Shown: positions 4,890 to 26,655 of the stretch, piece after piece | Position numbering within the stretch: the first letter of the stretch is position 1 | Layout of the letters: each line of letters opens with the position of its first letter | Assembly: GCA_017534595.1 (NCBI GenBank) | Contig: JAFXVY010000071.1 | Location: forward strand, 1-44,273 | Direction: 5' to 3' | Source of the DNA: Ruminococcus sp. | Lineage (GTDB): Bacteria > Bacillota > Clostridia > Oscillospirales > Ruminococcaceae | Length of the DNA: 44,273 bases | Made by a program: the position numbers and the translations under genes | Notes under the pieces: model-generated | Told to the model about the DNA's origin: nothing | Database searches by the model: none | What the model saw: only the letters and a program-made list of their open reading frames with translations

Positions 4890-4918
4890 ATTATAACACA
4901 TCAAGCGCAAATAATCAA
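4890..4918 (-). promoter_or_regulatory. sigma-A promoter for aroB, at a MITE edge
   Basis: On the minus strand TTGATT (4913-4918) and a perfect TATAAT (4890-4895) are 17 nt apart, about 45 nt upstream of the aroB start. The first T of the -35 is the terminal base of the repeat element at 4918-5091; the rest is flanking DNA. It would let aroB-aroA-NUDIX-aroC be transcribed independently of the aroF attenuator. Confidence 0.7.
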
Positions 4919-5091
4919 GGCAACACCGCACAACCATTGTGCGTCAGACGCGCAGTCAGATTTTTCGTCAGATTGCCTAAATTCGACGCCGCCTTGCTGG
5001 CGCAAGGCAAGGAAAATTTGGGTAATATGACGGAAAATATGCAAGCGGATGATGTACAAAGGCGTTAGCCGGTGGTTGTACGGTGTTGCCT
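4918..5091 (+). mobile_element. MITE-like hairpin element, copy 1
   Basis: A 174-bp element with terminal inverted repeats AGGCAACACCGCACAACC / GGTTGTACGGTGTTGCCT and no coding capacity. It is near-identical to 26455-26628 (five differences counted by eye) and more distantly like 44134-44273; all lie in the same orientation. The interior is a long imperfect palindrome with the tip GCCTTGC-TGGC-GCAAGGC (4991-5008). Length, terminal inverted repeats and copy number fit a non-autonomous miniature transposable element; no transposase is in the window. Exact ends are uncertain by a few bases and I see no clear target duplication. Confidence 0.8.
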
Positions 5092-5103
5092 AAAGTGAGG
5101 AGC

Positions 5104-6120
5104 TCAGTCGGCGAGCTCTGTCTTACGGAAGTTCTCCATGGCCCTGATCTTGCGCATCGAGGTCTTGAACTGCTCGGGAGTCAGAGACTGTGCGCCGTCG
5201 CTCCAGGCGGTCTTCGGGTCGATGTGTACCTCTATCTCAAGAGCGTCGGCTCCCGCAGCCACGGCGCAGATCGCCATGGGCTCGACCAGCGAGCTTATGC
5301 CGGTAGCGTGGCTCGGGTCGATGACGAGAGGAAGATGAGTCTTCTGTCTGAGCAGCGGCACCGCCGAGATATCAAGGGTGTTGCGCGTCTCGGTCTCGAA
5401 GGTGCGGATACCTCTCTCGCAGAGCATCACCTTGCTGTTGCCCTCCGACATGATATACTCGGCGCTCATCAGCAGCTCCTGCAGCGTCGCGGAAAGGCCT
5501 CTCTTGAGCAGCACCGGCTTGTCGCAGCGGCCGAGAGCCTTGAGCAGGGTGAAGTTCTGCATATTGCGGGCTCCCACCTGAACGACGTCCACGTCGGCGA
5601 AGAGATCGAGGTCGGAGAGATCCATGATCTCGGTAACGATCGGCAGACCGGTCTCCTTCTTGGCCTTGAGCAGCAGCTCTATGCCCTCTTTGCCAAGCCC
5701 CTGGAAGGCGTAGGGCGAGGTGCGGGGCTTGAAGGCGCCTCCGCGCAGCATATCTGCTCCCGCCTCCTTGACGGCTATCGCGGTCTCCATGAGCTGCTTT
5801 TCGGTCTCAACTGAGCAGGGCCCCGCCATGACGGTCAGCCCGCCTCCGCCGATGGTAACGCCGCCGGCCTCGATGATCGTATCGTCCGGGTGGAAGCGGC
5901 GGTTGGCGTTCTTGTAGGGCTCCTGCACCCGCTTTACCGACTCGACTATGCCCCTAGCCTTTACGGCGTCGATATCTATGGGCGTGGTGTCGCCGATAAG
6001 GCCGATTATTCTCGAGTGTACGCCCTCAACGAGATTGGTCTTGACATTGAAGCCCTGGAGCCAGTCCATGAGCTCGTTTACCTGTACGTCTGTTGCATTG
6101 TCTCTGATCACGATTACCAT
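5104..6120 (-). CDS. aroF: 3-deoxy-7-phosphoheptulonate (DAHP) synthase
   Basis: DAHP synthase (338 aa) condenses PEP with erythrose-4-phosphate, the first committed step to aromatic amino acids. It is the Thermotoga/Bacillus-type class: an N-terminal ferredoxin-like domain (about 1-70; [20 protein letters not shown]) associated with feedback control, followed by the TIM barrel with [45 protein letters not shown] and DPSHATG. I chose the ATG at 6120: GGAGG is 9 nt upstream, and the longer in-frame reading to 6186 would run through a transcription terminator. It is the first gene of the operon, behind an attenuator (6147-6382), and is separated from aroB by the MITE at 4918-5091. Confidence 0.96.
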
Positions 6121-6146
6121 TTTGCATAACCTCCGTAAAATCAAAT

Positions 6147-6177
6147 AAGGCAGCCCGGACCGTGTCCAAGCTGCCTT
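6147..6177 (-). terminator. attenuator terminator upstream of aroF
   Basis: On the minus strand AAGGCAGCTTGGAC-ACG-GTCCGGGCTGCCTT is a continuous 14-bp stem (two T-G pairs) with a 3-nt loop, followed by TTATTTGATTTT, 27 nt before the aroF ATG. Its left arm and loop (6160-6173, CAGCTTGGACACGG) are also complementary at 12 of 14 positions to 6216-6229 (CCGTGTGAAAGCTG), the last codons of the leader peptide ORF. The two pairings exclude each other, as in amino-acid attenuators. Confidence 0.85.
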
Positions 6178-6214
6178 TAAGGTCAAAGTATGTTATATAC
6201 CCTCATACTTCATT

Positions 6215-6301
6215 TCAGCTTTCACACGGCAAACAGACCTTAGCCCAGAAGCTAAAGCCGAAAAAGCCGTATGTAAAGACTTTGGAAGTATGACCGTACA
6301 T
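6215..6301 (-). CDS. aromatic-rich leader peptide of the aro operon
   Basis: A 28-codon ORF between the aroF promoter and the attenuator terminator, starting ATG TAC GGT after an AAAGGAAAG ribosome site and ending TGA at 6215. Eight of 28 residues are aromatic: two Tyr, five Phe and one Trp, concentrated in FTYGFFGFSFW (residues 9-19). Its last codons (PCES-stop) form the 5' arm of the antiterminator. The expected logic is that a ribosome stalled at Phe/Tyr/Trp codons leaves that arm free, the antiterminator forms and aroF is transcribed; a ribosome reaching the stop codon masks it and the terminator forms. Translation and regulation are inferred. An overlapping frame starting at 6306 is less aromatic. 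Confidence 0.8.
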   Translation of the reverse strand: MYGHTSKVFTYGFFGFSFWAKVCLPCES

Positions 6302-6353
6302 CGCATTTCTTTCCTTTCGTGTGCTGACGGAGCATTTCGCCCCGACGTGGTAA

Positions 6354-6382
6354 ATTATACAACCGTTCAGCCTTCAAGTCAA
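6354..6382 (-). promoter_or_regulatory. sigma-A promoter of the aro operon
   Basis: On the minus strand TTGACT (6377-6382), a 17-nt spacer and TATAAT (6354-6359). Transcription would begin near 6347, about 45 nt before the leader peptide start and about 227 nt before aroF. It lies directly downstream of the tRNA-Lys terminator. Confidence 0.85.
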
Positions 6383-6442
6383 CCGCAAATGCCAAATGTT
6401 TACAGTTTGTTTATATTCGCGCAGATGTCCCCAAAAAGAAAA

Positions 6443-6470
6443 CCGTCCCCCTGCGCGGGCAGGTGGACGG
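6443..6470 (-). terminator. terminator after tRNA-Lys
   Basis: On the minus strand CCGTCC-CCTGC-loop-GCAGG-GGACGG is followed by TTTTCTTTTT. It lies about 30 nt after the tRNA CCA end and separates the tRNA transcript from the aro promoter. Confidence 0.8.
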
Positions 6471-6497
6471 CTCTTTATTCGCAGGGGGATGCCCTGC

Positions 6498-6573
6498 TGG
6501 TGAACTAGCGGGGATTCGAACCCCGGACCCTTTGATTAAAAGTCAAATGCTCTGCCGACTGAGCTACTAATTC
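6498..6573 (-). tRNA. tRNA-Lys (anticodon TTT)
   Basis: A 76-nt cloverleaf on the minus strand with encoded CCA. The acceptor stem is GAATTAG / CTAGTTC (one T-G pair), the discriminator is A, the D arm is GCTCAGTCGGCAGAGC, the anticodon loop is CTTTTAA with anticodon TTT flanked by a five-pair stem (TTGA..TCAA region), and the T arm is CGGGG-TTCGAAT-CCCCG. It is a single tRNA with its own promoter (6617-6645) and terminator. Confidence 0.97.
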
Positions 6574-6616
6574 ACAGGTTTAAAGTCTCCGTGCGGGTCT
6601 TCACAGCGACTAATAT

Positions 6617-6645
6617 ATTATAACAGATTGTTTTCTCTTTGTCAA
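6617..6645 (-). promoter_or_regulatory. promoter of tRNA-Lys
   Basis: Consensus TTGACA (6640-6645), a 17-nt spacer and TATAAT (6617-6622) on the minus strand, about 45 nt before the tRNA 5' end. Confidence 0.85.
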
Positions 6646-6671
6646 GTGCTGCCGTGAGAATTTATTGTCTG

Positions 6672-7169
6672 TTATAATTCAAGCGAGAAAACATGGTCGT
6701 CCATAACGAATCCGTCACCGATATCCGTTACCTGATCCCTGATGACCTCCATGCCCCAGTGACGGTACACAGCTATCGAGCCGTCATTGTGACGGTTGAC
6801 GGTGAGCCAGACCGATGAAAGCCCTCTGCTGTGCCCTATGCGCTTGACCTCCTCAAACATTTGCGAGGCGTATCCTCTGCCCCTGACCTCCTTGCGGAGA
6901 TAGAGCTTCGAGAGGAAGAGCGTACCGTCGCCGTGATCGGCAACGGCGAAATAGCCCTGCTGAACGCCGTCGGCAAAGAAGCCGTAATATTCGTAATCCT
7001 CGCTCTGTATCTGGCGCTTCATCGCCTCGAAGGACTGGAACTGCTCAAGCATGAACTCGATCTGCTCCGGGGTGATGATGCTCAGAAAATGCTCCCGCCA
7101 GATCTCGGCGGCAAGCTCCGCGTTGGCTCTGAGCTCACCGTCGGATACGAGCCTTCTGATCCCGGTCAT
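6672..7169 (-). CDS. GNAT family N-acetyltransferase
   Basis: A 165-residue single-domain GNAT acetyltransferase. The acetyl-CoA-binding motif A is visible as LYLRKEVRGRGYASQMFEEV (about 92-111), preceded by strand LFLSK and followed by the motif B region VNRHNDGSIAVYRHWGM. The acceptor substrate is not predictable. The start codon overlaps the stop of the upstream DUF815 ATPase gene by 4 nt (ATGA), indicating translational coupling; both follow the aspartate kinase. Confidence 0.88.
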   Translation of the reverse strand: MTGIRRLVSDGELRANAELAAEIWREHFLSIITPEQIEFMLEQFQSFEAMKRQIQSEDYEYYGFFADGVQQGYFAVADHGDGTLFLSKLYLRKEVRGRGYASQMFEEVKRIGHSRGLSSVWLTVNRHNDGSIAVYRHWGMEVIRDQVTDIGDGFVMDDHVFSLEL

Positions 7170-25709: not shown

Positions 25710-26567
25710 ATGTATGTAACGGATAACGACAGAAAGGGTCTGCGGCACCGCTTTGACTGGTGCGGGGACTCTATGATAAGCTCTTATTTCGAGGGCATAA
25801 TTGGTACAGGCGTCGCCGAGCGCAGGGACGATCCCCGCTGGATGCTCATACGCTCCGGGGATTTTTACTTCGCCGCCGGTGAGCCTGTCGGTATAGACGA
25901 GGCGGTGCGGGATTTCATCCTGCCGCACTCTGTCATCATACCTGAGGATATGAAATGGCTCGAAGCAGTACAGGCCTGCGGCCTTGAAGCCGGCCCCTAT
26001 ACCCGGTACAGGACGAGGATACCCGAGAAGGGTCTCGACAGGGCTCTGCTCGAGAGCTATCTGCGAAACGCCGGCTGCGTGACGGTAAAGCGAGCCGGAG
26101 AGCGCGAATATGCTCTGCTCCGGGACTGCGAGTGGGAGAACGCCTTTGTGTTCAACTTCTCCGGGATGGAGGATTTTCTCACCAACGGCTTTGCCTGGTG
26201 TGTTTTCATCGGGGACGAGCTCGCCTCCGCCGCCTCGACCTACGGCTGGTACAGCGGCGGATATGAGCTGCAGATCGCCACAGCTCCCATGTTCAGACGC
26301 AGAGGTCTTGCAGCCGTGTCGGGAGCGGCCTTCCTGCTCGAATGCCTCGACCGCGGCAAGCGCCCTCACTGGGACGCCGCCAACGAGACCTCGGTGCGCA
26401 TAGCTCAGCGCCTCGGCTTTGAGTATGCGGGAGAGTATCAGGCGATATCGGTAAAGGCCACACCGCACAACCATTGTGCGTCAGACGCGCAGTCAGATTT
26501 TTCGTCAGATTGCCTAAATTCGACGCCGCCTTGCTGGCGCAAGGCAAGGAGGATTTGGGTAATATGA
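25710..26567 (+). CDS. GNAT acetyltransferase with MITE-derived C-terminus
   Basis: A 285-residue protein of the larger GNAT class (resembling the GNAT_acetyltr_2/ZmaR-like family): an N-terminal domain of about 130 residues and a C-terminal acetyltransferase domain with LQIATAPMFRRRGLAAVSGA (about 191-210) and the closing ANETSVRIAQRLGFEYAGEY. The ATG at 25710 follows GGAGG by 11 nt. From about residue 249 to the stop the frame runs inside the repeat element starting at 26455, so the last 36 or so residues (KATPHNHC...) are encoded by inserted DNA and are unlike the family. The true C-terminus probably lay near YQAISVK. Confidence 0.85.
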   Translation: MYVTDNDRKGLRHRFDWCGDSMISSYFEGIIGTGVAERRDDPRWMLIRSGDFYFAAGEPVGIDEAVRDFILPHSVIIPEDMKWLEAVQACGLEAGPYTRYRTRIPEKGLDRALLESYLRNAGCVTVKRAGEREYALLRDCEWENAFVFNFSGMEDFLTNGFAWCVFIGDELASAASTYGWYSGGYELQIATAPMFRRRGLAAVSGAAFLLECLDRGKRPHWDAANETSVRIAQRLGFEYAGEYQAISVKATPHNHCASDAQSDFSSDCLNSTPPCWRKARRIWVI

Positions 26568-26628
26568 CGGAAAATATGCAAGCGTATGATGTACAAAGGC
26601 GTTAGCCGGTGGTTGTGCGGTGTTGCCT
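26455..26628 (+). mobile_element. MITE-like hairpin element, copy 2
   Basis: 174 bp, about 97 percent identical by eye to 4918-5091, in the same orientation. Terminal repeats are AGGCCACACCGCACAACC and GGTTGTGCGGTGTTGCCT. It has landed at the 3' end of the GNAT gene and supplies its stop codon (26565-26567); its right end is 27 bp before the rnr start codon. Confidence 0.85.
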
Positions 26629-26655
26629 AAAGTAACAGATAAGAAAGGAAAGACA

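Follow-up and report, generated by a model that had tools for sequence, protein, structure and literature searches.

The aroR-aroF attenuator of Corynebacterium glutamicum, reportedly described by Neshat et al. 2014, is a described case of a leader peptide placed upstream of a DAHP synthase gene. In the classical leaders of E. coli trp and pheA, the helices 1:2, 2:3 and 3:4 are formed by four segments, of which the first holds the regulatory codons and the second lies at the stop codon. In Firmicutes, T-boxes are the better-known alternative to such leader-peptide control. The aroR peptide is quoted with the residues Phe-Tyr-Phe, and ribosome stalling under Phe limitation raises aroF transcription (PMC11802643, PMC4046766); the first of these papers also mentions the E. 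coli trp and pheA leaders. In Acholeplasma, an upstream ORF of aroF named uORFC-13-1 was proposed, with at least one Phe codon, a possible promoter, a ribosome binding site and an adjacent intrinsic terminator (Brewer et al. 2021, PMC8632094). Attenuation of E. coli aroF was hypothesised as early as 1980 (cited in PMC8632094, PMC2659441). Within Firmicutes, leader-peptide attenuators are reported for hisS/hisZ in Bacilli (PMC2965389) and for branched-chain amino acid synthesis in S. aureus (PMC5794164).

We analysed a stretch of 44,273 nucleotides (the window), in which an aroF gene is preceded by a putative attenuator of this type. By description, the C. glutamicum system resembles it in having a leader peptide upstream of the DAHP synthase gene, but belongs to another phylum, is quoted with three aromatic residues and is reported not to depend on Tyr availability. 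Also compared by description, uORFC-13-1 differs in its distribution, its 24 representatives coming only from Acholeplasma and environmental sequences, and the source passage (PMC8632094) does not describe alternative 1:2/2:3 helices. The window shares its predicted four-segment architecture with the E. coli trp and pheA leaders, whereas it would regulate the enzyme at the entry of the shared pathway, mixes Phe and Tyr codons and has no Rfam match. The Firmicutes leaders use the same classical control, but for other amino acids and genes, and in Bacilli, not Clostridia. The earlier note on this DNA was not aware of such control being described in this group. Among the papers listed in our literature search, with most subscription papers outside its scope, there was no clostridial aroF leader attenuator; in other bacteria, this kind of control has been described (C. 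glutamicum aroF) or proposed (Acholeplasma aroF). This is apparently a new and wide family of an already known kind of attenuator, with a textbook mechanism.

Leader ORF and predicted RNA structure at aroF

The features of the leader region and of the genes around it are as follows.

6498..6573, minus strand: tRNA-Lys gene, upstream of the leader promoter
6354..6382, minus strand: promoter of the leader transcript, sigma-A type, TTGACT-17-TATAAT, 11/12 to consensus
6313..6318, minus strand: GAAAGG, ribosome binding site for the leader ORF, read from the sequence
6215..6301, minus strand: leader ORF of 28 codons plus stop with the aromatic run FTYGFFGFSFW, translated as MYGHTSKVFTYGFFGFSFWAKVCLPCES and then the stop
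6266..6281, minus strand: segment 1, codons 7-12, forming the protector helix with segment 2 (6230-6217) in the minimum-energy structure
6236..6259, minus strand: inner hairpin over codons 15-22, 6259-6250 with 6245-6236 in the minimum-energy structure
6216..6230, minus strand: segment 2, last leader codons and stop, with segment 1 (6230-6217) or segment 3 (6229-6216) as partner
6160..6173, minus strand: segment 3, pairing with segment 2 and overlapping the 5' arm of the terminator
6147..6177, minus strand: predicted intrinsic terminator formed by 3:4, with 14 pairs and then ATTTGATTTT
5104..6120, minus strand: aroF, DAHP synthase (3-deoxy-7-phosphoheptulonate synthase) with an N-terminal ferredoxin-like domain; NF006421 475.4 bits, TIGR01361 391.8 bits
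3733..4878, minus strand: aroB, 3-dehydroquinate synthase, 3' of aroF on the same strand; TIGR01357 354.5 bits
2494..3729, minus strand: aroA, 3-phosphoshikimate 1-carboxyvinyltransferase, 3' of aroF on the same strand; TIGR01356 357 bits
946..2037, minus strand: aroC, chorismate synthase, 3' of aroF on the same strand; NF003793 403.7 bits

Our reading, to which we give a probability of about 90% on sequence comparison and structural modelling, is that a ribosome-mediated attenuator sets the expression of the DAHP synthase, and probably also of aroB, aroA and aroC, according to how much charged tRNA-Phe and tRNA-Tyr is available. If charged tRNA is abundant, the ribosome would reach the stop codon and cover segment 2, and the terminator would form. 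When charged tRNA-Phe or tRNA-Tyr is scarce, the ribosome would stall on segment 1 and leave segment 2 free to catch the emerging segment 3, so that transcription would proceed into aroF. In the absence of translation, 1:2 would form, and the terminator too. A Ruminococcus-like bacterium would in this way very probably produce aromatic amino acids chiefly in times of shortage.

The promoter (6382-6354) and the 28-codon ORF (6301-6215) were confirmed as the earlier note had read them, and eight of the 28 codons are aromatic (5 Phe, 2 Tyr, 1 Trp). Among 13 sequences compared, the window included, a promoter with a spacing of 17 and at least 10/12 matches precedes the leader in 13/13, a raw count without a chance baseline. 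AAAGG is found ahead of the leader start in 12 of them and AAGGGG in the remaining one (L002). In the window, an out-of-frame ATG at 6306 lies five bases ahead of the leader start and nearer to the ribosome site, an overlapping arrangement that only one other of the 13 sequences shares (L006). The leader peptide gave no NCBIfam match when searched with the leaders of three relatives, and no Pfam match with those of two. The Phe-Thr-Tyr codons CTTTACATAC (window 6278-6269) are identical in all 13 sequences, wobble positions included, in a set that was anchored on CTTTACATAC. They are unchanged even where the segment-2 partner differs, and this identity seems to exceed what the 1:2 helix demands.

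The region 6348-6120 (minus strand) folds at -89 kcal/mol, against -59.7 (SD 4.4) in 200 shuffles (z -6.6), and the minimum-energy fold has the classical attenuator form of 1:2, inner hairpin and 3:4. The 1:2 helix (6281-6266 with 6230-6217), which was not named in the earlier note, makes termination the default without translation. A terminator with a T-run had been claimed; the hairpin of 14 pairs is there, but its tail ATTTGATTTT is a T-run with interruptions. Positions 5800-6800 hold this one terminator-like site (6177-6147, minus strand) and shuffles of that stretch average 1.2; alone, the hairpin is unremarkable. The competing 2:3 pairing is present with 12 of 14 bases matched (6229-6216 with 6173-6160). 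In the window it is no better than in shuffles, either when segment 2 is restricted to the ORF end (p 0.60) or when the whole stretch from the aromatic run to the terminator is allowed (p 0.12).

Recurrence and amino-acid content of the leaders

Upstream regions of aroF were collected from two samples. In the related-genome sample, 45 of 61 genomes had a DAHP synthase match and loci were taken for 30 of the matches; the sample of named public genomes comprised the best 80 of 590 matches, a set biased to close relatives. The 110 regions were reduced to 104 by removing three duplicates (L031, L033, L069) and three with less than 300 nt upstream (L034, L041, L092). A leader was defined as an ORF of 10-70 codons with at least six Phe/Tyr/Trp within 12 codons, and leaders starting more than 300 nt upstream (L102, L107) were scored as absent. 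On this definition, 78 of the 104 non-redundant regions, 74 of which come from the best 80 of 590, have an aromatic leader, as compared to 6 of 342 control regions. The controls were regions upstream of other unannotated ORFs of at least 200 aa, on both strands of the same loci. Forty shuffled sets gave a mean of 5.0 leaders and a maximum of 9. By source, leaders were found at 27/30 loci of the related-genome sample and at 51/74 of those from the named public genomes (best 80 of 590). A terminator-like hairpin lies between the leader stop and aroF at 71 of the 78 loci, with 9.6 expected from shuffles.

Within the genus, all 11 genomes with an aroF orthologue have both the leader and a terminator-like hairpin. 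A DAHP synthase match was absent in five of the 16 genus genomes, and four of the five are less than 90% complete. Two same-genus genomes carry second DAHP synthase copies (63% identical; L121, L122), and neither has an ATG-started aromatic leader within 400 nt, which suggests one regulated and one unregulated copy.

Among the 26 regions that were leaderless at threshold, a long same-strand frame ends within 60 nt of the gene in 10, and a weaker leader with five aromatic codons in 12 is found in six. An Rfam scan of 20 of these 26 loci returned a single match, to a ribosomal-protein leader; it lies at L058 on the other strand and not at aroF. In the window's own genome, the pheA-type (PF00800) gene has no room for a leader because the upstream ORF runs to its start.

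The earlier note proposed that the peptide senses Phe, Tyr and Trp together. The comparison does not support this for the family as a whole. The 78 leaders (51 of them from the best 80 of 590) contain 449 Phe and 301 Tyr codons and only 21 Trp codons, and Trp is present in 19 leaders and absent from 59. Its share of the aromatic codons is 2.7%, against 8.9% in the long frames of the same loci, a background that includes antisense frames. At the position of the window's Trp, the eight closest relatives have Trp in four and Phe, Tyr-Phe or Ser in the rest. Since Trp is rare, the sensor would read Phe and Tyr with Trp as an occasional addition, and the sequences point to an attenuator that is mainly a Phe/Tyr sensor. 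In the Thermotoga enzyme, the PF18152 ferredoxin-like domain is the site of feedback inhibition by Tyr and Phe. The DAHP synthase of the window matches the Pfam families PF00793 and PF18152, and sensing of Phe and Tyr agrees with the presence of this domain. Elsewhere in the same genome, a T-box match that exceeds the cut-off is found ahead of a TrpB-like gene (L112), and Trp supply may therefore be under a T-box of its own.

A covariance model built from eight close relatives was searched in 148 family genomes under stricter filters, scoring up to 20 candidates per genome. It gave at least 10 matches in 9 of the 148 genomes, and four of these matches precede DAHP synthase. For the other six (E 1.7e-5 to 5.8e-4), the stretch examined contains no DAHP synthase, and they look like chance matches or bare terminators. 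The small number of relatives recovered indicates that the RNA diverges too fast for that model.

By record title, the leaders come from Ruminococcus, Oscillospiraceae, Lachnospiraceae, Christensenella and others; named relatives with the leader include Oscillibacter valericigenes (L040), Angelakisella massiliensis (L052) and Bittarella massiliensis (L098). We consider it likely that Clostridia of the gut and rumen share a large family of Phe/Tyr leader attenuators, as yet without a name, that governs the entry step of the shikimate pathway. It would hold aroF in a phylum better known for T-boxes and keep the logic of four segments, with segment 2 free to shift from the ORF to the region past its stop. 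The first shikimate step in many of these bacteria appears to be set by whether a tiny Phe/Tyr peptide is translated smoothly, which offers a simple way to tell when they make their own aromatic amino acids. The finding predicts many unannotated leader peptides and would bring widespread classical attenuators into a group for which T-boxes are the usual topic; the surprise is in the breadth, not in the kind.

Aromatic leaders with a terminator-like hairpin were also seen before DAHP synthase on MAG contigs labelled Kiritimatiellae, Lentisphaerae and Planctomycetaceae (L071, L078, L100), which may be mislabelled bins or the result of transfer.

Pairing tests, folding model and alternative readings

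Pairing was analysed at 71 loci, the seven of the 78 leaders without a terminator-like hairpin being excluded, and the cross-pairing set was thinned by shared 8-mers from 71 to 59 loci. The cross-pairing permutation asks whether the segments of a locus fit each other better than they fit those of other loci. All three helices of the attenuator were supported (1:2, z -18.8; 2:3, z -6.6; 3:4, z -29.0), as opposed to the pairs that an attenuator does not need (1:3, z 0.2; 2:4, z -1.1; and a weak 1:4, z -3.4). The permutation does not model relatedness; kinship should weaken the contrast and not strengthen it, because relatives share both segments. Against shuffles, the narrow 2:3 test at the ORF end gave p <=0.05 in 12/71 loci. 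As segment 2 follows the stop in many loci, a position-free test was run after this weak result, and gave a mean z of -1.10 (s.e.m. 0.14) with p <=0.05 in 19/71 loci, 3.6 being expected. The competing pairing that the earlier note saw in the window is backed by the set of loci and not by the window sequence alone.

The earlier note had also proposed a search for covariation in related Ruminococcus genomes. In the eight close relatives, helix 1:2 has 85.2% of cells paired with one pair changed on both sides, and the inner hairpin 96.3% with no such change. Together with 3:4, they have 89.9% of cells paired, against 31-50% when slid, and double changes in four pairs (one belonging to 1:2 and three to 3:4), a number reached by 2 of 500 shuffles. 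The 2:3 helix is paired in 85.7% of cells, against 15-49% slid, but hardly varies: it shows one both-side change, which 191 of 500 shuffles equal, too little for a covariation signal of its own. An extra 9-nt switching pair, TCATACTTC with GAAGTATGA, had been suggested as well, and was not established in these relatives, where the controls were mixed. The helix that includes it has 65.1% of cells paired, with both letters of 4 of its 15 pairs found in one sequence only. It exceeds column shuffles (4/500 reach its paired percentage, 10/500 its number of double changes), but equally many double changes arise when it is shifted by -3 columns.

In the folding model, only the RNA downstream of the ribosome folds, before the 3' arm of the terminator exists, and the size of the ribosome footprint is assumed. 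For the window, upstream RNA is predicted to hold a fraction of the terminator's 5' arm that amounts to 0.63 with a stalled ribosome, 0.23 with the ribosome at the stop codon and 0.03 without a ribosome. The 71-locus means are 0.72, 0.37 and 0.49, respectively, and those of shuffled leaders 0.53, 0.37 and 0.59. The gain over shuffles is thus in the stalled and ribosome-free states and not at the stop codon, where real and shuffled leaders give the same mean over the 71 loci (0.37). The stalled state exceeds the ribosome-free state by more than 0.2 in 38/71 loci, compared with 5-9 in five shuffled sets, and exceeds the stop-codon state by as much in 56/71, compared with 22-32 in shuffled sets. 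The model predicts a structural switch by ribosome position, with the antiterminator favoured at the aromatic codons beyond shuffles. Once the 3' arm is made, the terminator of the window dominates at every ribosome position (0.82-0.97); as the finished terminator is the most stable throughout, the switch must be kinetic and take place during transcription.

Taken together, the recurrence of leader and terminator, the exclusive helices, the folding model and the promoter in 13/13 sequences strongly support ribosome-mediated attenuation, as the earlier note had read the locus. The helices 1:2, 2:3 and 3:4, mutually exclusive as predicted, are supported across loci at the sequence level.

A leader peptide could also act by nascent-peptide sensing in the manner of TnaC, with free Phe or Tyr, and not empty tRNA, as the signal for the ribosome arrest that it causes. 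The recurrent peptide motifs (VFTYGFFGFSF.AKV in the genus; AAEYFYF, FGKA and LCC elsewhere) would suit such an arrest, but the motif of the genus falls on the 1:2 helix and the inner one, and the leaders of distant genera share, by eye, little besides aromatic residues. The recurrent end of the leader bears on the same point. A segment-2 core resembling TTTGTGCTGC is found in 27/71 loci (hand-made pattern, no chance baseline), after the leader stop in 10 and within the ORF in frames 0, 1 and 2 in 3, 6 and 8 loci, respectively. Being kept regardless of frame, it looks conserved as RNA, which speaks against an arrest peptide. We regard such an arrest as very unlikely, and attenuation through tRNA charging as the preferred reading.

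It is extremely unlikely that the short ORF merely boosts translation or mRNA stability by reinitiation or coupling, the hairpin being an ordinary terminator for tRNA-Lys transcripts. The tRNA-Lys gene does lie upstream (6573-6498), and leader genes that raise expression of the next gene have been proposed (PMC4833913). This explanation does not fit with a clustering of aromatic codons far above that of other upstream ORFs, with a terminator placed behind a promoter of its own in 13/13 relatives, or with the support across loci for a 2:3 pairing that excludes the terminator.

A T-box, or another ligand- or tRNA-binding RNA for which translation of the ORF would be unnecessary, has a next to negligible probability: T-boxes are common in Firmicutes and the window's genome has nine T-box matches, five of them over the cut-off, but no Rfam family reaches its gathering score in the region, where E values up to 10 bring only far-below-cut-off matches, and the ORF recurs while the RNA model of the closest eight finds few relatives.

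The T-box covariance model (RF00230) was not matched at the leader, the nine matches lying elsewhere in the genome. One match over the cut-off (L114) precedes a gene weakly similar to muramoyltetrapeptide carboxypeptidase (38 bits, below the family cut-off), an unusual T-box partner.

Other elements around the aro operon

Between aroF and aroB, we noticed a 174-nt element (window 4915-5100, arms 4918-4936 and 5073-5091) whose 19-nt inverted ends are 95% complementary, and a second copy lies at 26454-26633 of the window. The genome yields at least 43 match rows for it, 40 of them at 97-100% identity with the query included (best 40 of 169 candidates), and 19 of the rows begin at contig base 1. 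The element looks like a MITE-type repeat within the aro operon.

The tRNA-Lys gene is itself preceded by TTGACA-17-TATAAT (window 6645-6617), a 12/12 match to consensus with TG ahead of the second hexamer.
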